This document shows positions 21 through 12,357 of a DNA stretch of 34,480 nucleotides, piece after piece (the stretch's first letter is position 1; each line of letters opens with the position of its first letter). The notes beneath the pieces were generated by a model. It had not been told where the DNA came from. It saw nothing but the letters and a program-made list of their open reading frames with translations, and ran no database searches. Position numbers and translations under genes: made by a program. The DNA comes from Ectothiorhodospiraceae bacterium (lineage in GTDB: Bacteria; Pseudomonadota; Gammaproteobacteria; XJ16; Halofilaceae): NCBI GenBank assembly GCA_007134775.1, contig SLKC01000072.1, positions 1 to 34,480 of the forward strand. The letters are read 5' to 3'.

Positions 21-827
21 ATGGTTCAGATCGCGGTACTCCACGCCACATTGCCACAACTGCTGGCCCAGTCCTCAAACACGCATACCGGCGGTTTCGA
101 GCTGGTGCGCAGTGCCGCCGATGTAGGGACCTTCCGCAGTGGCCTCGCCACGCAGTCCGTCGATGCCCTGATCCTCTCGCTGGGGTTGCTGGGCAGCCAG
201 CCGCTGCGCGAGATCGACCGCCTGCGCCGCTACACGCGCGCCCGCGCCGTCATCGTTACGCACAATAACTTCGTCAGTGCGCAGTTGCTGCAAGCGGTGC
301 AGGCGCAGGACGATCTCCTCGTTGCCCGTGAGCCGGTGACACCCAGCCGCCTGCGCGGACTACTCGCCCGCGTGCTGGATTCGTCCGATTTTGCTGGCGA
401 CGGGAGCCAGGCGCAGGTGCCCGCGACTGTAGCCGAGGTGGGCCCGGAGCGATGGTTCGACGAGCTGGTGGCACAACCGTCGTCGGCGCGGCGCTTCGAT
501 GACGTCGAATTGAGTCGGATATTCGATGAGGCGGTGACCGGCGACTATGAGTTCACGCAGTATGTCGCCGAATTGTTGATCCACCTGTCGGGGTTCGAGG
601 ACTACTGCCGCCGGCGCAACGCCGGACGCGAGTCGACCCGCGGTTTGCATACCGAAGTCGAGCGCAGCGTCGGCCATTCCCGCGCACTGTTCGAGGAAGC
701 GCTGACGCGTTTGACGGTGGCTACGGGGCTCGCCGAGCGAGGGCCGGGAGAGCAGGCGGTTGACGGGGAGAAGGTGATCGATCTTGCGACCAGTCGGGGC
801 CGCCGGGATTCCTCGGAGGGTGGCTGA
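21..827 (+). CDS. Unrecognised protein with degenerate receiver-like N-terminus
   Basis: I cannot assign a function. The 268-residue product has an N-terminal half (about residues 1-120) with the alternating strand/helix pattern of a response-regulator receiver domain, but the usual acidic pocket is missing: the strand where the phospho-accepting Asp would lie reads DALILSL, and the position of the conserved Lys-Pro reads REP. The C-terminal half (about 150-245) is charged and predicted helical, with a disordered polar tail. An AAGGG at 6-10 lies 10 nt before the ATG and suits initiation there. The frame stays open to the left edge of the window, so a longer form starting upstream cannot be excluded. 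It ends 3 bp from the convergent hydrolase gene. Likely a protein-interaction adaptor rather than a phosphorylated regulator (inference). Confidence 0.6.
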   Translation: MVQIAVLHATLPQLLAQSSNTHTGGFELVRSAADVGTFRSGLATQSVDALILSLGLLGSQPLREIDRLRRYTRARAVIVTHNNFVSAQLLQAVQAQDDLLVAREPVTPSRLRGLLARVLDSSDFAGDGSQAQVPATVAEVGPERWFDELVAQPSSARRFDDVELSRIFDEAVTGDYEFTQYVAELLIHLSGFEDYCRRRNAGRESTRGLHTEVERSVGHSRALFEEALTRLTVATGLAERGPGEQAVDGEKVIDLATSRGRRDSSEGG

Positions 828-830
828 ATA

Positions 831-2048
831 TCAGGGTTGGGCGTTTGCGCCGATGTATGGCGCACAGGGGCGTTCATCGAGTTCCATCTCCAGCGCACGG
901 GTCAGTGCGAGCGTGCGTCGACCGATATCGGTGCGCAAGAAGTAGTGGTCGGCCTCCGGCTCGGTCAGGGTGATCGCATCGTCCGCGGCGGCAACGGCAT
1001 CGGTGAGCAGACCCGCGCCATCGTTCGGTCCCAGGCGTGCCAGACGCGCGTGGCGGCCTTCCGCGCCATGGGTCATCTGTGCGGTCATGGGCACCGGGAT
1101 GTAGTTGATTACCCGGAGGGTGGCGGGCAAGTCGCTGCGCGCCAAGCGCTCGGCTGCCGCATCGGTGCGTAGCGACAGTAGGCTCTCCCAGCTCCATCCG
1201 TGCCAGGCCATCAGGGGGCGGCCGACGAGGCTGCGCGGCAGCCGGGTCCAGTCATCGGCCACCGCCGTGCCGCGAAGCAGTCCGCCGGCGTTGATCCAGG
1301 CCGTGACTGTGGCGCTCTCTTCAGGGGACAGCAGATGCCCAAGGGCGTAGTGCACCTCGGCTCCCGACTTGCTGGCACTGACGATGATCAGTTCGCGGGA
1401 CGGATCATCGAAGTTGCGGAGGTGATCGGCCAGATGCGCCGCGTTCGCCTCGACCGTTCCGTCCTGTTTTGTATCGAGGAGCTCATGCGTGATGCCGGCC
1501 CGTTCCAGGGCTGACCGCGTGCGCGCGAAGTCGGCCTCCGTTGTGGTGTGGTCTTCGTAGAGCCAGCCGGGCACGAACACCACATGGAAGCGTTCCGCGG
1601 CACTCTGCATCAGTGCCTCGACGTCGGTGTCGGGGGCGCCAAGGCGGTCATTGAAATGGGAGACACAGGCGGCAAACTGGGCATTGCGATCGTTCCGATA
1701 GACGCGGTCGATGAACAGCAGGGCGGCGAGGTCGACGGAGCCGGGGCGCGCGAGCACAGGGGTGAAGTCGAGCTGATGCAGTGGCTGATCCGCCAGGTCG
1801 GCCCGTATCGGCTCGATATCGTGGTGCCACCCTTCCGGATGGGCATCGGGATGGTCCTCAAGGAAATGGCGCGCGGCTTCGTGATCGAGCGGCACTGACA
1901 GCGTTCGATCGGCTACTGTGCCGGTGCCCTGGACGGCCGGATCGGCAGCGGGTGTCGCACACGCCCCGGCGAGACCGCAAAGGACGACAATGAGGACGAC
2001 GCAGCTGCTCCGGCGTCGGCGCTGTTGGATCGTCCTGAGCTGCAGCAC
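831..2048 (-). CDS. Putative lipoprotein alpha/beta-hydrolase
   Basis: Predicted exported hydrolase or esterase of 405 residues. From the GTG at 2048 the protein begins with an Arg-rich n-region, a hydrophobic stretch (about 17-27) and a lipobox-like AGAC with Cys at 30, so it is probably a lipoprotein. A strand ending VPGW (159-162) resembles an oxyanion-hole loop, and SASKS (224-228) looks like a nucleophile elbow with Ser226 in place of the classic G-x-S-x-G. An Asp-His near the C-terminus (EADHYF) could supply the catalytic His. The frame extends to an ATG at 2171 (446 aa), but that would put about 45 polar residues before the signal sequence and overlap the leader of the divergent operon, so I prefer 2048; the ribosome-binding site there (GGAA) is weak. 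Substrate unknown. The hydrolase call is inference from fold motifs. Confidence 0.6.
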   Translation of the reverse strand: MLQLRTIQQRRRRSSCVVLIVVLCGLAGACATPAADPAVQGTGTVADRTLSVPLDHEAARHFLEDHPDAHPEGWHHDIEPIRADLADQPLHQLDFTPVLARPGSVDLAALLFIDRVYRNDRNAQFAACVSHFNDRLGAPDTDVEALMQSAAERFHVVFVPGWLYEDHTTTEADFARTRSALERAGITHELLDTKQDGTVEANAAHLADHLRNFDDPSRELIIVSASKSGAEVHYALGHLLSPEESATVTAWINAGGLLRGTAVADDWTRLPRSLVGRPLMAWHGWSWESLLSLRTDAAAERLARSDLPATLRVINYIPVPMTAQMTHGAEGRHARLARLGPNDGAGLLTDAVAAADDAITLTEPEADHYFLRTDIGRRTLALTRALEMELDERPCAPYIGANAQP

Positions 2049-2183
2049 TGTTTCCGATCCACTGCTCCGTGATGGGTACTTGCCCAGATTGCCGCGCAAT
2101 GGGCTATGCTCGTCGGTTACCATTGCCATTCCAAGAATACGGAATCCGGCGCCGCTTCGGGCGCCCTGCAAGGGGGAGGATCA

Positions 2184-4538
2184 ATGCTGGCGCCCGGTGA
2201 TTACTACGCGGGACGGACCATTCTGCTCACGGGTGCGACCGGGCTGGTCGGCCGCGCCGTGCTGGAGACGCTGCTCCGGACGCTCCCCGAAGTGCGCCGC
2301 ATCCATGCGCTGGTCCGCCCCCGGTGGACTGCCGAGGGCGAGCGGGTCGCACCGGAGGTGACCCTGGAGCGTGAGATCCTCGGCAACAGCGCATTCAATG
2401 CCCTGCGCGAACACCACGGCGATGCCTTTGATGACTTCGTCGCACAGCGCGTCGCGGCCGTCGCCGGCGATGTCAGTCGACCGGGTCTCGATCTCGATCC
2501 CGCCGACCGGCAGCGACTGGCAGGCGAGGTCGATCTGGTGATCAACTGTGCCGCGCTGGCGGTCTTCGATGCACCGCTGGATCAGGCGCTGCAGTCGAAC
2601 GCCCTCGGTCCGCTGCATGTACTTGAGTTCGCGCGTGAGGTACCGAATCCGCCGTTCATCGCCCACGTCTCCACCTGCTACGTGAACAATCTGGCCGGGC
2701 CGGTGTTCGAGACCACGCCCGTGCCCGATGCCAGCGACCCGCACGATCCGGGCGGGCGCTTCGACGCCGATGACGAGATCGAGGCGCTGCGGCGCCGCGT
2801 TCAGGAGGTCGAGCAGAACGGGCCGCAGGATCCCGACCAGCGCCGTCAGCAGCTTGTGGCCACGGGCCTTGAGCGTGCGCGCTCACGGGGCTGGAACGAC
2901 ACCTACACATTTACCAAGGCGCTCGGTGAGCAGCTCTTCGTCCGCCATCGCGGTGACATCCCGGGCCTGATTCTGCGCCCTGCGATCATCGAAAGCGCAC
3001 TGGCCCATCCCGCTCCGGGCTGGATCGATGGCTTTCGCATGGTGGATCCACTCATTGTCGGATTTGCCCGCGGGCAGATCTTCGAATTTCCCGGGCATCC
3101 CGACAGCGTGCTCGACGTTATCCCGGGGGATCGCGTGGTCAACGCGCTGCTTATGGCGATCCCGTGGTGCCATCGCGATGGCGGGCCGGAGGTCTTCCAG
3201 GTCGCCTCCGGCATGGAGAATCCCCTGCGCATTGGCGAGCTTCGCGATTACCTGCACGACTACTTCGAGCGCGCGCCATTGCGGCATGCGCCTGGCGGCG
3301 CCAAGCCGCGCCCCCTGCCGGATCTCACGTTCCCGCCGACAGCGCGTTTTCTGGCCTCGCTCCAGCGACGCTATCTGCGTCCGCTAAGACTGCTAATGCG
3401 CCTCACCGCACCGCTGCGCTGGACGACCTGGGGACGGCATCAGCACGCGACTTTCTCCGGGCGTCACGGCCGCCTGAAGCGTCTGCACGACATGGCCGCA
3501 ATCTACGGGCCGTACGCCCAGAGCCGAGTGCGCTACATGAGCTGCAACACGAGCGCCCTTGCCCAGCGCATGTCGACGGAGGAGCGCGCCCGCTTCCCTT
3601 GCACGGCGGGGGATTTTGCCTGGCGTAGCTACGTGCAGGAGGCGCACATACCCGGTATTGAGCGCTACCTGCTGCGCATGCGTCGCGCCGCGCCCCGGAC
3701 CCCCACGGGTACGGCCTCGGCGGCCGGTGGCGAAGGCGCCGAGGTGGTCGCCGAACACTGGCACAAGGCCCAGCGCTTGCTGGCGGCGACGCGTACGACG
3801 GATCCCGATGCCGTGCGTACCTGGACACGTCCGGGACGGGCACGCCCCTTGCAGCGGGCCAGTGCGGCGGTGCTGCGTGGCGTTTGCCGCACCTATCTCC
3901 GCCTGGGGGTGGAGGGCGGCGAGCACCTGCCCGAACGCGGCCCCTACATCGTGGTGTCGAATCACTGCAGCCACGCCGACACCACGGTCTTGTTGGCCGC
4001 GGTGGGGCCACAGGCCGTTCAGCTCCATCCGACGGCGGCCTCGGATTACTGGTTCCGCAGCCGACTCCTTGGCTGGGTACTGCACGGTACGCTGGGTGCG
4101 GTCCCCTTCGACCGGCATGCGAAGAGCGTGCCGCGCGCACTCGCGCTGCCTACGGAGATGTTGCGCGCCGGCGAATCGCTGGTCTTCTACCCTGAGGGCA
4201 CGCGCAGCCCTGATGGACGGCTGCAGCGTTTCGGCAGTACGGTCGGTTTGCTCGCGCTGGCGGCGGCCGTGCCGGTCGTCCCGGCCTATATCGAGGGCAC
4301 GTCGCAGGTGTTGCCGAAGGGACGGTTCGTACCCCGTCCCCACCGTGTCCGGGTCACGTTCGGTCAACCCCTCGGCCCCGATGCCTATCTGCGTCGTCTC
4401 GCGGCGGAGCATCTCGCCCACGTCGCGCGCGATCTGGCCGCCGATAGTCAGGCCGCAGTGGCTGCGCTGGCGCCGCCCGATCTGGTGGTGGAGTCGATGG
4501 CGCAGGCGTCGAGCGCCGTTTCGGACCGGATGCGGTGA
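2184..4538 (+). CDS. Fatty acyl-CoA reductase fused to PlsC-type acyltransferase
   Basis: A 784-residue two-domain enzyme. Residues about 10-370 form an extended-SDR, male-sterility/FAR-type reductase: the NAD(P)-binding motif TGATGLVG is at 16-23, the catalytic YTFTK at 241-245, and LRPAIIES at 264-271 is typical of fatty acyl-CoA reductases. Residues about 555-770 form a glycerolipid acyltransferase with the HX4D motif (His594, Asp599) and FYPEGTR (Glu671-Arg674). The first domain should convert acyl-CoA to fatty alcohol; the second should acylate glycerol-3-phosphate or DHAP. The ATG at 2184 is chosen because GGGGGAGGA (2172-2180) precedes it; the upstream ATG at 2106 lacks such a site. 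A small GC hairpin (2148-2165) sits just before the Shine-Dalgarno. Its neighbours (AGPS and DHRS7B-like reductase) suggest it feeds ether-lipid synthesis with both fatty alcohol and acyl-DHAP. DHAP rather than G3P as acceptor is inference. Confidence 0.88.
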   Translation: MLAPGDYYAGRTILLTGATGLVGRAVLETLLRTLPEVRRIHALVRPRWTAEGERVAPEVTLEREILGNSAFNALREHHGDAFDDFVAQRVAAVAGDVSRPGLDLDPADRQRLAGEVDLVINCAALAVFDAPLDQALQSNALGPLHVLEFAREVPNPPFIAHVSTCYVNNLAGPVFETTPVPDASDPHDPGGRFDADDEIEALRRRVQEVEQNGPQDPDQRRQQLVATGLERARSRGWNDTYTFTKALGEQLFVRHRGDIPGLILRPAIIESALAHPAPGWIDGFRMVDPLIVGFARGQIFEFPGHPDSVLDVIPGDRVVNALLMAIPWCHRDGGPEVFQVASGMENPLRIGELRDYLHDYFERAPLRHAPGGAKPRPLPDLTFPPTARFLASLQRRYLRPLRLLMRLTAPLRWTTWGRHQHATFSGRHGRLKRLHDMAAIYGPYAQSRVRYMSCNTSALAQRMSTEERARFPCTAGDFAWRSYVQEAHIPGIERYLLRMRRAAPRTPTGTASAAGGEGAEVVAEHWHKAQRLLAATRTTDPDAVRTWTRPGRARPLQRASAAVLRGVCRTYLRLGVEGGEHLPERGPYIVVSNHCSHADTTVLLAAVGPQAVQLHPTAASDYWFRSRLLGWVLHGTLGAVPFDRHAKSVPRALALPTEMLRAGESLVFYPEGTRSPDGRLQRFGSTVGLLALAAAVPVVPAYIEGTSQVLPKGRFVPRPHRVRVTFGQPLGPDAYLRRLAAEHLAHVARDLAADSQAAVAALAPPDLVVESMAQASSAVSDRMR

Positions 4539-4674
4539 TCTCCGGCGCAGACGCGACGCAGCCGGGGTGGCCTCCCTGTCGCGGTGGTAGTGCTTGCCGC
4601 GTGCAAGGGTGCCGGGACCTGTGGCGAACGGCTGGCCGTCGAAGTGGTCGCGTTGAACTCGATCGGGAGGTGGA

Positions 4675-6570
4675 ATGACCGGTGTCGTAGTGGTTGCTGT
4701 CGGCCTGCTCGTCATCGTCGGCGTCGTCGCGCTCCGGCGTGGTCGACCGGCACTGGCGGTCGCGGAACGCTCCTGGGATGCGACGCCGGGCGAGCGCAAC
4801 CGGCTGTTCTGGGGGTATCGCGATACGGCCTTCGAGTTCTGCGGGCCGGCCACGGTGCGCCTGACCGGCGCTCGCTATCCGCTCGCGGGCAGCCCCTTGC
4901 CCGATTTCGTCCCCTATGTCGAGCGCATGCTCGGCCTCAAGCTGCGACCCGAGGATCTGCGCGAACCGGTCCTGCCGACGGAGCTGCCCGAGGTGCGGAG
5001 CAACGCGGCATTCATGGCGGCGCTCGCAGAGCTGCTGCCCGCGGACCGCCGCTCGAGCACCGATGGCGACCGCCTCGCCCACAGTCACGGTCAGCTCAGC
5101 GTCGACGAGATCTATCGTATCGCTCGGGGCGAGCTGCCGCCGCGCGTCGTCGATGCCGTCGTCTGGCCACAGAACGATGACGAGATCGAGGGCCTGATCG
5201 CGCTCGCCGAGGCCCATGACGTGGTGCTGATCCCCTACGGCGGGGGCACGAATGTCTCGGGTGCGTTGATGTGCCCGGGTAGCGAGGAGCGGATGGTCGT
5301 CGCGGTTGATATGGCGCTAATGGACCGCGTCCTCGAGATCGACCGCGAGAACGACCTGGCCGTGGTCGAGGCCGGTATCACCGGGCGCGAGCTGGAGGCG
5401 CGGCTCGAAGCCGCGGGTTACACGAGTGGACACATCCCGGACAGTATCGAGTTCTCCACGCTCGGCGGCTGGATCGCGACCCACGCCAGCGGGATGAAGA
5501 AGAATCGGTATGGCAATATCGAGGAAGTCGTGCGCGAAGCGGTCTTGATCACGCCCCAGGGCGCCGTCAGCTCGCAGCCGGTGACCCCGCGCCATTCGGT
5601 CGGCATCCAGCCGCGAACCTGGTTGTTCGGCCACGAGGGCGGCCTGGGCATCATCACGCGTGCGACGATCCAGGTCCATCGGCTCCCGGAGTGCCGCCAA
5701 TACGCGTCGTTCGTCTTCCGCGACTTCGCTAGCGGCCTGGCCTATCTCCACCGCGTCCAGCGCGAAGGGATTGGGCCCGCGAGCATCCGCCTGGCGAACA
5801 ACACCGAGTTCCGTCTAGGCCGCGCGCTGGCGCCGCACGCGACGGGCCTGGGCGGGCTGATCTCCCGTCTCAAGTCGTTCTACGTGCTCAAGGTCCGCGG
5901 TTTCGCCGGTGACCGCATGGTGGCGAGCACCATCGTGATGGAGGGCTCCGCCCACGAGGTGCGCCAGCAATGGCAGGCGCTGACGCGCCTCGGGCGTGCA
6001 CTCGGGGGGCTGCCCGGCGGGGCCGAGGGCGGGCGACGGGGGTACCAAGCGACCTTCGCCATTGCCTACATCCGCGATTTCCTCAACCGGTTCGGCATCA
6101 TTGGCGAGACGTTCGAGACCTCGGCCCCCTGGAGCTGTGTGGAGGCGATCGTCACCACGGTCGAGGAGACGCTGCATCGGGAGTGCGCCGAGCATGGGGT
6201 ACAGGGCTACCCCTATCTCTCCTACCGGGTGTCGCAGAGCTATCCCGCCGGCGTGTGTATCTATTTCACGATGGGATTCTCCGGTGGCGGCCTTGCCGAC
6301 CCCGCCGCGACCTACCAGGCCATCGAGCACCGCCTGCGCGCCGTGATCCTTGAACAGGGCGGTTCGCTGTCGCACCACCACGGTGTCGGCAAGGTGCGCC
6401 AGGGATTCGTGGCGCAGGTCCATACGCCGGCCGCGCTGAGCGCGATGCGGGCGCTGAAGGCCGAGCTCGATCCGCGCGATGTCTTCGCCAGCGCCAACCA
6501 CGCCTTCGGCCTCGCGCCGGATGAGGCGCAGGACCAGGCTGATTCCGTCGAACAGGGCCGCCGGGTATGA
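4675..6570 (+). CDS. Alkylglycerone-phosphate synthase (AGPS) homologue
   Basis: FAD-dependent enzyme predicted to exchange the acyl chain of acyl-DHAP for a fatty alcohol, giving alkyl-DHAP, the committed ether-bond step. Its 631 residues resemble human AGPS along nearly the whole length as I remember it: an LTGARYPL/LPDF N-terminal block (63-78), the FAD-binding PYGGGTNVSGALMCP region (187-201), VEAGITGRELE (231-241), SGMKKNRYGNIE (272-283), GESF-like GETFETSAPW (477-486), and C-terminal SLSHHHGVGK (564-573). Residues tied to catalysis in the eukaryotic enzyme are kept: Tyr530 in CIYF, His567-569, Arg372 in ASIRL, and Arg518. Unlike the peroxisomal enzyme it starts with a hydrophobic helix (about 3-20) followed by RRGR, suggesting an inner-membrane anchor with cytoplasmic catalytic domain. 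A GGAGG at 4666-4670 precedes the ATG. The stop overlaps the next start (ATGA). Alternative: another FAD-linked oxidase of the D-lactate/glycolate type, much less likely given the HHH and Tyr match. Confidence 0.92.
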   Translation: MTGVVVVAVGLLVIVGVVALRRGRPALAVAERSWDATPGERNRLFWGYRDTAFEFCGPATVRLTGARYPLAGSPLPDFVPYVERMLGLKLRPEDLREPVLPTELPEVRSNAAFMAALAELLPADRRSSTDGDRLAHSHGQLSVDEIYRIARGELPPRVVDAVVWPQNDDEIEGLIALAEAHDVVLIPYGGGTNVSGALMCPGSEERMVVAVDMALMDRVLEIDRENDLAVVEAGITGRELEARLEAAGYTSGHIPDSIEFSTLGGWIATHASGMKKNRYGNIEEVVREAVLITPQGAVSSQPVTPRHSVGIQPRTWLFGHEGGLGIITRATIQVHRLPECRQYASFVFRDFASGLAYLHRVQREGIGPASIRLANNTEFRLGRALAPHATGLGGLISRLKSFYVLKVRGFAGDRMVASTIVMEGSAHEVRQQWQALTRLGRALGGLPGGAEGGRRGYQATFAIAYIRDFLNRFGIIGETFETSAPWSCVEAIVTTVEETLHRECAEHGVQGYPYLSYRVSQSYPAGVCIYFTMGFSGGGLADPAATYQAIEHRLRAVILEQGGSLSHHHGVGKVRQGFVAQVHTPAALSAMRALKAELDPRDVFASANHAFGLAPDEAQDQADSVEQGRRV

Positions 6571-7409
6571 GTGACGCAAGCCCGGGGTCGTTTCGTGGTC
6601 GGGTCTTCGTGGTCACCGGTGCTTCCTCGGGGCTCGGCTACGAGATCGCCCAGGCACTCGCGGCAGAGGGAGCGCATCTGGTGCTCGCCGGTCGCGCCCG
6701 CGAGCCGCTGGCCGCCGCAGCGCTGGCCTGCCGGGAGCGGGGGGCGAGCGCCATCGCCGTGCCCACCGATGTCACCCTTGATGCCGATTGCAGCGCCCTG
6801 ATCGAGTGTGCGCGGGCCGAGTTCGGTGGCGTCGACGGCCTGGTCGCGGCCGCGGGCCTCGGTATGTGGGCGCGCTTCGGCGAACTCAGTGGTCCGGAGG
6901 TCATGGAGCCGTTGATGGCGGTCAACTACTGGGGTGTGGTCCAGCCCGCCTTCCATGCCTTGCCCGACCTGCGGGCCCGCAACGGCATGCTGGTCGTGAT
7001 CTCCTCGGTGCAGGGGCGCATCGGCGTGCCCTGGCACAGCGGTTACGCCGCAGCCAAGCATGCCGTCCAGGGCTTCTGCGACTCGCTGCGCCTGGAGGAG
7101 GGCGAGCGGCTCGCGGTGTTGACGGTCCTGGCCCACTGGATTCGCGGGACCGAGCTGCGTGCACGCGCCCTCGGCTCGGACGGCCGGCCACGCGGCAGCG
7201 CGGCTGCCGGGCATGGCGGTGACGCGATGCTCGCCGAGGAGGCGGCGGCGCGGGTCGTCGCGGCGATGCGGCAGCGCCGGCGCGAACTCTGGATTCCGCG
7301 TCACTTTCGCTTGGTGGGCATTCTGTCGAGTCTGGTGCCGGCACTCACCGATCGCCTGATTCGGCGCCGGGTCGAGCGCGAACATGCGCGGCAGCCCCGC
7401 GACGACTGA
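6567..7409 (+). CDS. Short-chain dehydrogenase, DHRS7B/PexRAP-like
   Basis: Classical SDR of 280 residues. It shows the TGASSGLG cofactor motif (17-24), active-site Ser146/147 and the YAAAK pair Tyr160/Lys164. The block around VVISSVQG...VPWHSGYAAAKHAVQGF resembles the corresponding block of human DHRS7B, the peroxisomal acyl/alkyl-DHAP reductase, as does the C-terminal stretch with an Arg-rich end (SLVPALTDRLIRRRVERE). The usual NNAG motif reads AAAG (about 94-97), losing the structural Asn. Its start overlaps the AGPS stop by four bases, so the two are probably translationally coupled. Predicted role: NADPH-dependent reduction of alkyl-DHAP to 1-alkyl-glycerol-3-phosphate. The family level (SDR) is certain; the specific substrate comes from the operon and from remembered similarity, so it is inference. 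Confidence 0.85.
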   Translation: MSDASPGSFRGRVFVVTGASSGLGYEIAQALAAEGAHLVLAGRAREPLAAAALACRERGASAIAVPTDVTLDADCSALIECARAEFGGVDGLVAAAGLGMWARFGELSGPEVMEPLMAVNYWGVVQPAFHALPDLRARNGMLVVISSVQGRIGVPWHSGYAAAKHAVQGFCDSLRLEEGERLAVLTVLAHWIRGTELRARALGSDGRPRGSAAAGHGGDAMLAEEAAARVVAAMRQRRRELWIPRHFRLVGILSSLVPALTDRLIRRRVEREHARQPRDD

Positions 7410-7599: not shown

Positions 7600-7651
7600 G
7601 CTGGCTGACTCCCTTTCCCCGCACAGCGCCGCAGTGGCGGCGAAGGCATTG

Positions 7652-8500
7652 ATGAATAAGGTTATATCCGAAGCCGCCGGTTATCTCGTTGCCATCGGCG
7701 GTGCCGAAGACAAGGAATTTGAGATGGAGATCCTCGGGCGCGTGCTCGCGCTGGCGCCCGACGACCATACCGAGGTCGCCGTGATCGTCACGGCGAGTGG
7801 TGTCCCCGAGGAGGTTTTCCCGACCTATGAGGCGGCGTTCACCCAGCTCGGGGCCACCGCTGTCCACGCGCTCGATCTGCGCGATCGCAATGACGCCAGT
7901 GACCCGGAGCATATCGCCACGATCCAGCGTTGCGGTGTGATCTTCTTCTCCGGCGGGGACCAGATGCGCCTGACGAATGTGCTCGGTGGCTCGCCCGCGC
8001 TCGAGGCAATCCGCCAGCGCTATCAGGAAGGAGCGGTCGTCGCTGGCACGAGTGCTGGCGCGGTCGCCCTGCCGACCGCGATCATCTATGGCGACGGCTC
8101 CGTCGACGCCCTGCACCGCGGGGGTGTGCAGATGGGTGCGGGGCTCGGCTTTGTCGAGGGACTGTTGATCGACAGCCACTTCCTGGAACGTGGTCGGTTC
8201 ACGCGGCTCATGGAGGCGGGCGCGACGAATCCGGAGTACCTCGGTGTCGGCCTCGGCGAGGACGCCGGTGTAATCATTCACGGGAATCGGATCCTCGAGG
8301 CCATCGGTCCCGGTCACGTGATCCTTGTCGACAACCGTGGCCTTGCCAGTACCAATGTCGCCGAGATCTCCAACGGCGATCCTGTCGCGCTGGAAAATGT
8401 CGTCATGCACGCCCTCATCAGCGGTCACGGCTTCGTCATCGATGAGCGCAAATATCTCAATCCCCAAGCGCTAGCGGAAAGCGTTGGAGGTGCATCGTGA
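7652..8500 (+). CDS. cphB: Cyanophycinase
   Basis: Serine exopeptidase of family S51 that cuts cyanophycin (poly-Asp with Arg side chains) into beta-Asp-Arg dipeptides in the cytoplasm. The 282-residue product has the family's VAIGGAEDK start (13-21), FFSGGDQ (98-104), the nucleophile motif GTSAGA with Ser134, and the DSHFLERGR segment. The ATG at 7652 is preferred because GAAGG (7642-7646) sits 5 nt upstream; a GTG at 7634 would add six residues. It ends in a GTGA overlap with cphA, so polymer breakdown and synthesis genes are co-translated, the common cphB-cphA order. Family assignment is secure. Confidence 0.95.
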   Translation: MNKVISEAAGYLVAIGGAEDKEFEMEILGRVLALAPDDHTEVAVIVTASGVPEEVFPTYEAAFTQLGATAVHALDLRDRNDASDPEHIATIQRCGVIFFSGGDQMRLTNVLGGSPALEAIRQRYQEGAVVAGTSAGAVALPTAIIYGDGSVDALHRGGVQMGAGLGFVEGLLIDSHFLERGRFTRLMEAGATNPEYLGVGLGEDAGVIIHGNRILEAIGPGHVILVDNRGLASTNVAEISNGDPVALENVVMHALISGHGFVIDERKYLNPQALAESVGGAS

Positions 8501-11118
8501 AAATCCTGGAGCAGCGCGCATTGCGCGGGCCGAACTACTACAGCCGCTATCTCACGATTTTCATGCGCCTCGATATCGAAGCGCTTGAAGACCGGCCCAG
8601 CGACGAAGTCGATGGCATCGCCGAGCGCCTTGAGCGGACTATTCCCACGATTCAGGAGCATCGCTGTACCGTCGGTCGTCCGGGCGGTTTTCTCGAACGC
8701 GTGCGGCGCGGTACCTGGGCCGGCCACATGGTCGAGCATGTAGCGATCGAGCTGCAGAATCTCATCGGTTTTTCCGTCGGCTACGGCAAGACCCTGGATA
8801 CCGATGAGCGCGGCGTCTACAACGTGGTCTACCGCTATCGCGACGAGGCCTGCGGCCTGGCCGCGGGCGTTGAGTCCGTCGACATTGTCGAAAATCTCTA
8901 CAACGGCCAGCCGGTCGATATGGACGCCGTGCTCAGGCGACTCAAGGAGGTCCGCGATGCGCACATGCTGGGGCCGAGCACGGGGTCGATCGTCAACGAG
9001 GCGAAGCGCCGCGGTATCCCCTGGCAGCGTCTGAGTAGCGAGACCAGCTATGTACAGCTCGGCCATGGTCATCGCCAGCGACGGATCCAGGCGACCGTTA
9101 CCGATCAGACCGGCCTGATCGGCTACGGCATCGCCGACGACAAGGAGTGGACGAAGCAGATCCTGGAGGATGCGGGCATCCCCGTTCCCCGCGGCTGGAG
9201 CTGCCACTCGCTGGAGGAGGCGAAGAGCGCGGCGAGCTGGATCGGCTATCCTGTCGTGGTGAAGCCGCTGATCGGCAATCACGGTCGGGGGGTGAGTACG
9301 AACATCGCTGACGAAGCGGGCCTGGAAGAGGCGTATGCGGCGGCGTACCACCGCCATGAAACCGTGGTGGTTGAAAAGTACATCCACGGCGAGGACCACC
9401 GCCTGCTCGTGATCAACGGCAAACTCGTGGCTGCCGCACGCCGGCGCCCGGCGCATGTCATCGGTGACGGCAGCTCCACGCTACAGCAGCTGATCGATTG
9501 TGAGAATGCCGATCCCCGGCGCGGAGTAGGGCACGAGAACCTGCTCACCCAGATCCATGTCGACGAACAGTCTCACCGGCTCATCTGGCAGCAGGGGCTG
9601 ACGCCCGATAGTGTGATCCCGGCTGACGAGGTCGTCTATCTCAAGTCGACGGCGAATCTCAGTACCGGGGGTACCGCGACCGACGTAACCGACGATGTGC
9701 ACCCCGAGGTACGCACCGCCGCCGAACGCTGCGCGCGCCTGGTCGGCCTCGACATCATCGGTATCGATTTGCTCGCGGAAACCGTGACGCGTCCGTTGGA
9801 GGAGCAGTCGGCCGGGGTCGTCGAGGTTAACGCCGGTCCTGGCTTCCGCATGCACATCTCACCTACCCATGGCCATGGACGGGATGTGGGGCGCGCGGTC
9901 GTGGATATGCTCTATCCCGAGCCGGGCGATCAGGCCCGTATCCCGATCACCGCGGTAACCGGTACGAACGGCAAGACGACGACAGTGCGCCTGATATCGC
10001 ATCTGGTGCGTCAGTCCGGGCGGCAGGTCGGCATGGCCTGTACCGGTGCGATCGAGATCGACAACCACGTCATCATGCGCGGCGATTACAGTGGTCCACA
10101 CGCGGCCCAGGTGGTTCTGCGGGAACCGACTGTCGAGCATGCCGTGCTTGAGGTCGCCCGGGGCGGGATCATGCGCCGTGGCTGTGGTTTCGACGAGTGC
10201 GAGGTCGGTGTCCTGCTCAATATCGATAGTGACCACCTCGGCGAACGCGATATCCATACCCTGGACGAACTCGCGCGCTGCAAGACCGTGGTGATTGACG
10301 CCGTGCGGAAGGGCGGCACGGCCGTGCTCAACGCCGATGATCCGCGCGTGCTGGCCGGACAGGAATGGGCCCGGGGCGATGTCATCTTCTTCACCCTCGA
10401 TCCCGATTCCCGCCCGGTACGCGCGCACGTGCGCGAGCACGGCGTCGCCTTTACGGTGCATGACGGCTCCATCGTCATGCGTCAGGGACATGTCGAGGCC
10501 GAGGTCGTGCCGGTGGCGGATGTCCCCATCACCTTCGATGGCCACGCGCGGTTCAATGTCGCCAATGCGCTGGCCGCAGCGGCGGCGGGTCATGCCTTGG
10601 GGCTGTCGCTGGCGGATATCCAGATGGGGCTACAGACCTTCCATCCCACGCGCGGCCAGAACCCGGGGCGGACGAACCTCATCGAGGCCGATGGAGTGAA
10701 GGTGCTGGTCGATTACGGGCACAACGTACCGGCCCTGAAGGCGCTCGACCAGCTCGTCTCCAGTCTGCCAGCGAAACGCCGCATCAGTGTCGCCAGCGCG
10801 CCGGGCAACCGCCGCGACCAGGATCTGTACGATCTCGGTGGGCAGCTCGCCAAGATGCACGATTTGCTCTTCGTCTACGACACGGACGCCCGTAGGCGCC
10901 CTGCCGGGGAAGCGGCCGGCCTCGTGCGCGCGGGTGCGATCGCCGCTGGTGAGTGCGAGGTCGAGCTGGTGATGGCCGAGGAGGACGCCGTCGAGGCGGC
11001 CCTCGACGCGGCCGGCGAGGGCGATTTGCTCGTGTTGCTGGTGGATGACATCGATCACGCCGTGAAGTGTGTGAAGGCGCGCAGCTTCCGGCCGACCACG
11101 CCGATCGACGTGCTCTGA
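8497..11118 (+). CDS. cphA: Cyanophycin synthetase
   Basis: ATP-dependent polymerase that alternately adds Asp to the backbone and Arg to its side chain. The 873 residues match the usual length and three-part layout: an N-terminal domain (about 1-160, with RGPNYYS and GGFLERVRRGTWAGHMVEHVA split across the domain), an ATP-grasp domain (about 210-480, VVKPLIGNHGRGV and EVNAGPGFRMH), and a Mur-ligase-like domain whose P-loop GTNGKTT begins at residue 489. The intact P-loop and full length favour a primary synthetase (CphA1 type) rather than the CphA2 type that repolymerises dipeptides and has lost this site. Start is GTG with GGAGG at 8486-8490, overlapping the cphB stop. The isoaspartyl dipeptidase gene follows after 3 bp. 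Confidence 0.96.
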   Translation: MKILEQRALRGPNYYSRYLTIFMRLDIEALEDRPSDEVDGIAERLERTIPTIQEHRCTVGRPGGFLERVRRGTWAGHMVEHVAIELQNLIGFSVGYGKTLDTDERGVYNVVYRYRDEACGLAAGVESVDIVENLYNGQPVDMDAVLRRLKEVRDAHMLGPSTGSIVNEAKRRGIPWQRLSSETSYVQLGHGHRQRRIQATVTDQTGLIGYGIADDKEWTKQILEDAGIPVPRGWSCHSLEEAKSAASWIGYPVVVKPLIGNHGRGVSTNIADEAGLEEAYAAAYHRHETVVVEKYIHGEDHRLLVINGKLVAAARRRPAHVIGDGSSTLQQLIDCENADPRRGVGHENLLTQIHVDEQSHRLIWQQGLTPDSVIPADEVVYLKSTANLSTGGTATDVTDDVHPEVRTAAERCARLVGLDIIGIDLLAETVTRPLEEQSAGVVEVNAGPGFRMHISPTHGHGRDVGRAVVDMLYPEPGDQARIPITAVTGTNGKTTTVRLISHLVRQSGRQVGMACTGAIEIDNHVIMRGDYSGPHAAQVVLREPTVEHAVLEVARGGIMRRGCGFDECEVGVLLNIDSDHLGERDIHTLDELARCKTVVIDAVRKGGTAVLNADDPRVLAGQEWARGDVIFFTLDPDSRPVRAHVREHGVAFTVHDGSIVMRQGHVEAEVVPVADVPITFDGHARFNVANALAAAAAGHALGLSLADIQMGLQTFHPTRGQNPGRTNLIEADGVKVLVDYGHNVPALKALDQLVSSLPAKRRISVASAPGNRRDQDLYDLGGQLAKMHDLLFVYDTDARRRPAGEAAGLVRAGAIAAGECEVELVMAEEDAVEAALDAAGEGDLLVLLVDDIDHAVKCVKARSFRPTTPIDVL

Positions 11119-11121
11119 TCC

Positions 11122-12357
11122 ATGATGGTGGCGGGCGAGCCTGAGCAGACGGGCAACGGCTCCTCGGCCCTGATCCGTCTGCTACGTGTCGATCGCATCC
11201 TCACGCCGGCACCGGTGGCCGCGAACGAGCTGCTGATCGCGGATGGTCGCGTTGCCGCGCTCGGGCGTGATCTCCCCGTGCCCACGGGGTGGCCGGTCGA
11301 GGTCATCGATGCGCCGGGGCTGACGGCGGTGCCGGCCTTCATCGACCAGCATGTCCATGTCACCGGCGGTGGTGGCGAAGGCGGTTGCGGCACTCGCTGT
11401 CCACCTCTGACAGCCGCTACGGTCGCCGCGAATGGCATCGGGACCGTCGTCGGCGTTCTCGGCACGGATGGCATCAGCCGCACGCCCGCCGACCTGCTCG
11501 CGGGGGTGCGCGGACTGCAGGCCGCCGGCCTTTCGGCGTGGATGTATACGGGCAGCTACCGGGTGCCGCCGCCGACGCTGACCGGGGATATCCAGCGCGA
11601 TCTCGCCTGGGTGCCGGAAGTCCTCGGTGTCGGCGAGATCGCCCTGTCCGACCACCGTTCGTCCCAGCCGCGATTCGACGAGATCGCACGCCTGGTCGCC
11701 GATGCACGCGTCGGTGGCATGCTCGCCGGCAAGCGCGGTATCTGCCATTTCCACATCGGTGACGGCGAGCGCGGGCTCGCGCTGTTGCATGAGCTGCTCG
11801 CCTCAACGGAGATTCCGGCCGACCAGGTCATCCCGACCCATGTGAATCGGCGCCGGGGCCTGCTGGAGGAGGCGGTTGCCTTCAGTCTTCGTCATGGTGC
11901 CTCTGTCGATGTGACGGCCTTCGACGACGCCCCGGGCGATGACGAGCACTCCGCCTATCACGCCGTACAGTACCTGCTGGCGGCGGGCGTCCCGGCCGAG
12001 CGCATTACGCTGAGTTCCGACTGCAACGGCAGCCTGCCGGTCTTCGATGAGCGCGGCGCCTATCGAGGCATGCGGATTGCCGGTAATGCGACCTTGCTCG
12101 GGGACTGGCAGCGCCTGGTGCGCGAGGGTGTCCTGTCCCTTGAGGCGGCGCTGCCTCTGCTCGGCAGCAACGTCGCGCGGGTCCTTGGGCTCGAGGCCCG
12201 CAAGGGGCGACTCGAGCCGGGACTTGACGCAGACATTACGCTACTCGATGCCGAGCTTTCGCCCCAACGGACCTACGTCGCCGGGCGCTGCCTCTACGCC
12301 GCCGATCGGTGTGAGGCTGTAGATGTCGTGGCGACGTTCGCCGATAGGAATTCCTGA
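11122..12357 (+). CDS. iadA: Isoaspartyl dipeptidase (M38 amidohydrolase)
   Basis: Zinc-dependent hydrolase predicted to split beta-Asp-Arg, released from cyanophycin, into aspartate and arginine. The 411-residue protein has the family ligands His77 and His79 (DQHVHV), His211 (FHIGDG), His240 (PTHVNR) and Asp300 (SSDCNGS), plus GGGGEGG (82-88) that contributes to substrate binding in homologues. Where the E. coli enzyme carries its metal-bridging carboxylated Lys, this protein has Glu172 (GVGEIALSDHRS). The gene begins 3 bp after the cphA stop and its own stop overlaps the next ATG (TGATG). Context supports cyanophycin dipeptide use rather than repair of isoaspartyl peptides. Two ATGs in tandem (11122, 11125) leave the exact start open. 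Confidence 0.9.
   Translation: MMVAGEPEQTGNGSSALIRLLRVDRILTPAPVAANELLIADGRVAALGRDLPVPTGWPVEVIDAPGLTAVPAFIDQHVHVTGGGGEGGCGTRCPPLTAATVAANGIGTVVGVLGTDGISRTPADLLAGVRGLQAAGLSAWMYTGSYRVPPPTLTGDIQRDLAWVPEVLGVGEIALSDHRSSQPRFDEIARLVADARVGGMLAGKRGICHFHIGDGERGLALLHELLASTEIPADQVIPTHVNRRRGLLEEAVAFSLRHGASVDVTAFDDAPGDDEHSAYHAVQYLLAAGVPAERITLSSDCNGSLPVFDERGAYRGMRIAGNATLLGDWQRLVREGVLSLEAALPLLGSNVARVLGLEARKGRLEPGLDADITLLDAELSPQRTYVAGRCLYAADRCEAVDVVATFADRNS

Follow-up and report, generated by a model that had tools for sequence, protein, structure and literature searches.

In this study, we describe a compact operon in the window, a stretch of 34,480 nucleotides of DNA, which with a probability of roughly 85% provides the precursor of saturated (plasmanyl) ether phospholipids, 1-O-alkyl-glycerol-3-phosphate, by the DHAP route known from animal peroxisomes. 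It is composed of three collinear genes, which encode a fusion of fatty acyl-CoA reductase (FAR) and acyltransferase, an alkylglycerone-phosphate synthase (AGPS) and a short-chain dehydrogenase/reductase (SDR) (Table 1). All three open reading frames are present where a preliminary description of this DNA had placed them.

Table 1. Features of the putative ether-lipid operon in the window
Feature	Position	Strand	Basis
Ribosome-binding region AAGGGGGAGGATCA	2170..2183	+	Precedes ATG 2184; read from sequence
FAR and PlsC-type acyltransferase fusion, 784 aa	2184..4538	+	Pfam PF07993/PF03015/PF01553, PDB matches, alignment
Ribosome-binding region containing GGGAGGTGGA	4661..4674	+	Precedes AGPS start; read from sequence
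AGPS (alkylglycerone-phosphate synthase), 631 aa, FAD-dependent	4675..6570	+	457 bits to mammalian AGPS, residues, trees
Classical SDR, 280 aa, predicted alkyl/acyl-DHAP reductase	6567..7409	+	PF00106, PRK06181, AGPS adjacency

The reading frame of the first gene is open from position 2106, and its ATG at 2184 is preceded by a strong ribosome-binding site, GGGGGAGG. Immediately 5' of the AGPS start (ATG 4675) stands GGGAGGTGG. The second and third genes overlap by 4 bases; the first and second are spaced 136 bases apart, which counts against the operon reading. The host is an uncultured gammaproteobacterium. Its RpoB is closest to that of Pseudomonas, Legionella and E. coli (68-69%, as compared to 53-61% for other phyla over segments of more than 500 residues), in keeping with the class assigned to it before. 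No rRNA was found in the host assembly.

Identification of the second gene as a true AGPS is firm by residues, score and tree, while its catalysis is predicted. The protein consists of FAD_binding_4 and FAD-oxidase_C domains (PF01565/PF02913) and matches mammalian peroxisomal AGPS over residues 45-608 (phmmer, 457 bits, E=8e-136); the next non-AGPS match is D-lactate dehydrogenase (D-LDH) with 86 bits. Nine AGPS positions in all are kept. The equivalents of guinea-pig H300, D303 and T309 are H253, D256 and T262, those of R419, R515 and Y578 are R372, R467 and Y530, and those of H615-H617 are H567-H569; Y530 and H567-H569 are the catalytic tyrosine and the HHH motif which the preliminary description had pointed out, and R372 and R467 belong to the catalytic residues as well. 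Both domains are shared with D-lactate/glycolate oxidases and the glcD model does match, so that the gene might be taken for an oxidase of this type and the cluster for a hydroxy-acid or fatty-alcohol catabolic unit. The glcD match, however, amounts to 125.6 bits as compared to a cut-off of 567.9, and GlcD-like paralogues lack the equivalents of R419, Y578, H615 and H616, R419 and H616 being replaced by E. In trees, one of which took in guinea-pig AGPS and a GlcD-like outgroup, the protein falls inside AGPS on branches with 98-100% support, apart from GlcD-like proteins. The phylogeny proposed earlier as a check, AGPS or lactate/glycolate oxidases, thus came out for AGPS. Score, residues and tree rule out an oxidase, and a catabolic cluster is highly improbable.

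The N-terminal part of the fusion protein is assigned to FAR by an NAD_binding_4 domain (PF07993, 189 bits, E=9e-56), a 'Sterile' domain (PF03015, 38 bits with a cut-off of 35.4, E=1.6e-9), the nucleotide-binding Rossmann motif TGATGLVG and the YxxxK active site YTFTK. The protein matches the fatty acyl-CoA reductase of PDB 7eoz with 250 bits. The C-terminal domain (PF01553, 72.6 bits, E=3.5e-20) has a PlsC-type fold according to its motifs NHCSHAD (HX4D) and FYPEGTRS; motifs were read from an alignment of 7 fused homologues. Its best structural match is PlsC (PDB 5kym, 67 bits), and among named models those for AGP acyltransferases (TIGR00530) fit it best. Block III reads FYPEGTRS where the FIEG type is expected of GNPAT/PlsB, and at E 0.01 the domain gives no match to the GNPAT-like proteins of two other loci (L087, L022). 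Hence the fusion described previously holds, but its acyltransferase is of PlsC type and not of GNPAT/PlsB type. AlphaFold gave a model of the whole fusion too unreliable for interpretation (mean pLDDT 56). Because the domain is PlsC-like, its role as a DHAP acyltransferase is one that we infer. The PlsC-type family is better known for acylation of 1-acyl-G3P at sn-2, so the proposed DHAP acylation step could be wrong.

The third gene product belongs to the classical SDRs (PF00106, E=2e-40; PRK06181, 242.5 bits, above the cut-off of 215). The sequence match is to the generic SDR family, and adjacency to AGPS suggests a functional counterpart of DHRS7B/PexRAP. Of 52 loci in which this could be assessed, 30 have an SDR homologue as the gene immediately after AGPS, and none has one before it.

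The gene set is co-conserved well above chance level, and the four activities recognised in the preliminary description recur together across phyla. FAR-acyltransferase-AGPS-SDR or near variants are found in many phyla: Trueperaceae, Opitutales and Neomarinimicrobiota have this order, fused or unfused, and Hydrogenedentota have FAR-acyltransferase-AGPS followed by the contig end. Latescibacterota, Gemmatimonadota and one Truepera have FAR-X649-AGPS-SDR. X649 has no match in Pfam, but its fold is that of PlsC/GPAT (Z 11.2 with PlsC 5kym); in the Foldseek/VIA comparison, residues 59-345, the helical N-terminal half, matched various helical proteins that are unrelated, and these matches were excluded. 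Given this fold, an acyltransferase occupies the slot before AGPS in every version. Depending on the phylum, the acyltransferase adjoining AGPS is PlsC-type, X649 or GNPAT-like, and in one relative (G071) a PlsC-type domain, 39% identical to that of the window, is fused to AGPS itself.

These arrangements bear on an alternative with an unchanged pathway in which 1-alkyl-G3P receives its sn-2 acyl chain from the fused PlsC-type domain, while a separate enzyme delivers acyl-DHAP. A candidate is encoded on contig C156 of the genome, a 510-aa protein distantly resembling PlsB, and congeners have ORFs with PF01553 that are 506 and 557 aa long. The AGP acyltransferase models and the PlsC structure matched by the domain agree with such a role, as does ElbD of Myxococcus xanthus, which likewise has an AGPAT-like domain (PMC9131029). 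However, the genome already has further PlsC-type proteins encoded by separate genes, and the three types of acyltransferase found in the slot together with the G071 fusion suggest supply of acyl-DHAP, the activity AGPS needs. We consider sn-2 acylation by the fused domain unlikely.

In the preferred reading, the FAR domain would convert acyl-CoA to a long-chain fatty alcohol and the PlsC-type domain of the fusion would acylate DHAP at O-1. AGPS would swap this acyl group for the fatty alcohol via an FAD adduct, generating the ether bond, and the SDR would convert alkyl-DHAP to 1-alkyl-G3P. Another cellular PlsC enzyme would add the sn-2 acyl chain prior to ordinary phospholipid synthesis. What the acyltransferase and SDR domains act on, and which lipid results, is predicted. 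This reading is supported by Dictyostelium and Tetrahymena, which make ether lipids with the help of a FAR-acyltransferase fusion (PMC7375469). Against it count the disruption of AGPS in a comparable operon of M. xanthus, upon which ether lipids were only slightly lower, most flux passing through ElbD (PMC9131029), and Pontiella, in which ElbD homologues are present and ether lipids were undetected (PMC11868695); presence of a homologue is thus no guarantee of the lipid. A CarF/PEDS1 desaturase (PF10520) was not found in the 99.6% complete genome, whereas the same search as positive control detected it in 22 of 80 myxobacterial genomes. The lack of a vinyl-ether desaturase, noted earlier for the locus, accordingly extends to this genome.

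The cluster might instead produce a storage or secreted alkyl lipid (alkyl-diacylglycerol, wax-like droplets) and not a bulk membrane lipid. Fatty alcohol is a precursor of wax esters too, and the neighbours of the cluster are the cyanophycin storage genes cphB, cphA and isoaspartyl peptidase. Furthermore, a neutral ether lipid, TG-1, is known from M. xanthus (PMC9131029). Yet congeners without AGPS have cyanophycin genes as well, so their adjacency is no functional evidence, and a Pfam search found no wax synthase in the cluster. A storage product seems improbable compared with a membrane ether lipid.

The animal peroxisomal ether-lipid pathway is made up of FAR1, GNPAT, AGPS and DHRS7B. Its four activities are predicted here and its AGPS catalytic residues are identical; the window differs in having one operon, FAR and acyltransferase fused, an acyltransferase of PlsC type, no peroxisome and no PEDS1/CarF found. 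Bacterial ether lipids also arise by PlsA/GeR-type anaerobic plasmalogen/alkyl-ether synthesis, which, unlike the window, reduces a ready-made ester lipid without AGPS, FAR or a DHAP step. FARAT of Dictyostelium and Tetrahymena likewise joins FAR and acyltransferase in a single polypeptide that supplies AGPS (PMC7375469), but this acyltransferase is GPAT-related; Dictyostelium AGPS sits on a distant branch of the tree (249 bits to the second gene). For the M. xanthus operon MXAN_1676-1674, encoding AGPS (about 42% identity with the human enzyme), a FAR1-GNPAT-like fusion and an NAD-dependent epimerase/dehydratase, an aerobic DHAP-type route was proposed (PMC9131029). This operon also unites AGPS, a FAR-acyltransferase fusion and a reductase in three genes. 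Compared by its published description, it is of another type than the window: AGPS and not the fusion comes first, the acyltransferase is GNPAT/PlsB-type, the reductase is an extended SDR/epimerase and not a classical SDR, and related myxobacterial AGPS sequences form a clade well apart from that of the window (100/100). Myxobacterial ElbD (FAR-ACS-ACP-AGPAT) combines FAR and AGPAT-like domains in one ether-lipid protein as in the window, but contains ligase and ACP domains, neither of which the window protein has, and its gene lies apart from AGPS.

AGPS homologues have been reported in Chloroflexota, Desulfobacterota, Marinisomatota, Latescibacterota and Proteobacteria MAGs (PMC11868695) and were found by us on 230 contigs; the earlier view that AGPS is known mainly from myxobacteria is therefore out of date. 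A strongly supported AGPS clade comprises this gammaproteobacterium, Trueperaceae, Opitutales and Hydrogenedentota, mostly from alkaline soda-lake sediments, so that the nearest copies belong to unrelated bacteria. A myxobacterial origin is unsupported, as AGPS falls in another clade. Within the class the cluster type is sporadic (3 of 369 sampled genomes), and a genome-wide search with AGPS found none in either congener (G001, G002). There cphB-cphA-isoaspartyl peptidase is conserved and the operon is not upstream; orf2 (831-2171) has no match in them either, which makes the exact insertion ends unreadable. Horizontal transfer is the probable source of the operon in this lineage. Composition does not support recent foreign DNA (operon GC 0.68-0.72, contig 0.673, ordinary codon usage) and is compatible with an old transfer or a high-GC donor. 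On plasmids, only distant AGPS-like genes were seen. It is unlikely that the contig is a contaminant, since it also carries cphA, which shares 77-78% identity with its counterpart in the congeners. Tentatively, and with less than even confidence, one may envisage a distinct bacterial DHAP ether-lipid pathway in which a FAR-fused PlsC-type domain replaced the GNPAT step and which spread horizontally among unrelated phyla of alkaline/saline waters because ether bonds resist high-pH hydrolysis. In alkaline water, such bonds may be of advantage to the cell.

Novelty is limited, as an operon of FAR-acyltransferase fusion, AGPS and reductase is published for M. xanthus (PMC9131029) and AGPS homologues occur in many phyla. 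What differs here is the PlsC-type acyltransferase in the fusion, the classical SDR and the cross-phylum, mostly soda-lake clade. Defects of the ether-lipid pathway in humans lead to rhizomelic chondrodysplasia punctata, and the operon would offer a three-gene bacterial model of FAR1-GNPAT-AGPS-DHRS7B. The fusions of FAR with acyltransferase and of acyltransferase with AGPS are natural tests for substrate channelling. If the reading is true, animal-like alkyl-ether membrane lipids would exist in gammaproteobacteria and in bacteria of several phyla, mostly from soda lakes, and alkylglycerols in such sediments would no longer be diagnostic of anaerobes or myxobacteria.

The window makes up a complete contig of a 3.06 Mb assembly (99.6% complete). 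RpoB of the host is closest to those of Pseudomonas (69.4%), Legionella (68.5%) and E. coli (67.9%), and reaches 53-61% against the other phyla tested (segments of more than 500 residues), which identifies the host as a gammaproteobacterium. Three genes form the putative ether-lipid operon. Two ORFs lie upstream of it; for the second (831-2171), a homologue was sought in two congeners and none was found.

Features of the window and of loci discussed in the text
Feature	Position	Strand	Remark
ORF	window 21-827		adjoins ether-lipid genes; no Pfam/NCBIfam match
ORF	window 831-2171		adjoins ether-lipid genes; no Pfam/NCBIfam match
Gene 1, fatty acyl-CoA reductase (FAR) joined to PlsC-type acyltransferase	window 2184-4538	same as genes 2, 3
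Gene 2, AGPS	window 4675-6570	same as genes 1, 3	457 bits to mammalian enzyme
Gene 3, classical SDR	window 6567-7409	same as genes 1, 2
Cyanophycinase, cyanophycin synthetase, isoaspartyl dipeptidase	window 7634-12357		complete cyanophycin storage cluster
X649 family	L051:3026-4972; L029:5985-7928		about 650 aa, unannotated; six further homologues; between FAR and AGPS
PlsC-AGPS fusion (G071)	L015:286-2751		822 aa
ORF (G114)	L022:6633-12110		1825 aa; integrase-like by eye
Acyl-CoA/acyl-AMP ligase-acyltransferase fusions, own genome	L123:43-2619 (C129); L127:1007-3859 (C132)

Equivalents of guinea-pig H300, D303, T309, R419, R515, Y578 and H615-H617, residues whose numbering and roles are established for that enzyme (reportedly Nenci et al. 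2012), are all present in gene 2, and of the 82 animal-type sequences nearly all keep the set. In GlcD-like oxidases, two of them from the own genome, Glu replaces R419 and H616, and Tyr578 is lacking; in the tree a long, fully supported branch lies between them and AGPS. The grouping with lactate/glycolate oxidases that the preliminary description had named as the case against its assignment is therefore not found, and gene 2 is, by score, residues and tree, a true AGPS. A second, divergent gammaproteobacterial AGPS-like group (L005-L008, L016-L021) is about 30% identical and retains Tyr578 and His617, but in most members Gln stands in place of D303 and H616.

A scan of genome contigs gave 230 with AGPS relatives, of which 80 were fetched including flanks. 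The FAR-acyltransferase fusion followed by AGPS recurs in four Trueperaceae, one Hydrogenedentota and one Opitutales assembly, and the SDR comes next wherever the contig extends far enough. A Neomarinimicrobiota locus (L062) encodes the four activities as separate genes in unchanged order, and eight loci of Latescibacterota, Gemmatimonadota and Truepera show FAR, the 649-residue protein X649, AGPS and SDR. Among the 52 loci whose flanks each extend 2.5 kb or more, an SDR (at least 100 bits) lies downstream of AGPS in 30, and upstream or elsewhere in none.

X649 has no Pfam match. Its predicted structure (pTM 0.79) resembles PlsC (5kym) in the C-terminal half (Z 11.2, rmsd 4.5, 230 residues), which also matches plant and algal GPAT (1k30, 8ia1); the family, placed between FAR and AGPS, is probably an unrecognised DHAP acyltransferase. 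Elsewhere, FAR is fused to a GNPAT-like domain (myxococcal-type loci L087, L088), a GNPAT-like gene stands separate (gammaproteobacterium G114), or a PlsC-type domain is fused to AGPS itself (a second gammaproteobacterium, G071). Beside the last, HMG-CoA reductase-, glycosyltransferase- and CDP-alcohol transferase-like genes were seen by eye; the 1825-aa ORF of G114, possibly a mobile element, adjoins its AGPS/GNPAT/epimerase operon.

AGPS cannot do without acyl-DHAP as substrate. The same slot beside AGPS is filled by acyltransferases of several types, unrelated to one another or only distantly so, an arrangement that fits a presumed role in supplying acyl-DHAP. The fused PlsC-type domain could instead acylate sn-2; besides further PlsC-type genes, the own genome encodes a distant PlsB-like protein and two proteins that join a ligase to an acyltransferase, so that ordinary phospholipid synthesis need not rely on the fused domain. 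The two ligase fusions resemble ElbD, the FAR-ACS-ACP-AGPAT protein of myxobacteria, minus its FAR domain. In L123, the acyltransferase portion shares 37% identity with the domain that is fused to FAR in the window.

A search for a CarF/PEDS1 desaturase (PF10520) in the own genome and two congeners found none; run on 80 genomes from a myxobacterial class, the same search was positive in 22. Given the presumed acyltransferase and SDR substrates, the predicted product is therefore a saturated alkyl ether, as previously proposed from the apparent lack of a vinyl-ether desaturase.

One clade (100/100) unites the window AGPS with the six sequences that share the fused architecture, which belong to three other phyla and are 58-60% identical to it. 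Most of these are only about 60-63% identical to one another, and are therefore not one contig binned several times. Five of the six assemblies come from Kulunda soda-lake sediments (CSSed, T3Sed); the sixth is labelled PLM2. Truepera itself grows up to pH 11.2 (PMC3072082). AGPS was searched for in both congeners and is absent, and the cyanophycin genes adjoining the operon are conserved in both. AGPS of this grade occurs in 3 of 369 genomes of the sampled class, in three different clades (Parabeggiatoa near the G071 group). The simplest interpretation is that the genes were gained horizontally more than once; composition gives no mark of recent arrival for the operon. The phylum labels are those of metagenome bins, and individual ones may be mistaken. 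Two AGPS loci that hardly differ, L057 and L058, are labelled Anaerolineae and Neomarinimicrobiota, likely by binning error, so single labels are not safely read as transfer.

AGPS homologues are found in many Black Sea phyla (PMC11868695) and, in Promineifilum, near FcrA (PMC11948995), and FARAT fusions are active in Dictyostelium and Tetrahymena (PMC7375469). The M. xanthus operon MXAN_1676-1674 encodes AGPS, a FAR-GNPAT-like fusion and an epimerase-type reductase; disruption of its AGPS causes only a small drop in ether lipids, since ElbD carries most of the flux (PMC9131029). No paper on the PlsC-fusion variant or its soda-lake distribution was found in the part of the journal literature covered. 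Compared with these systems, the cluster, with its true AGPS, would from its sequence follow the animal route, but it does not belong to the myxobacterial type of operon. What is new is the PlsC-type fusion together with a classical SDR, another gene order and another clade.
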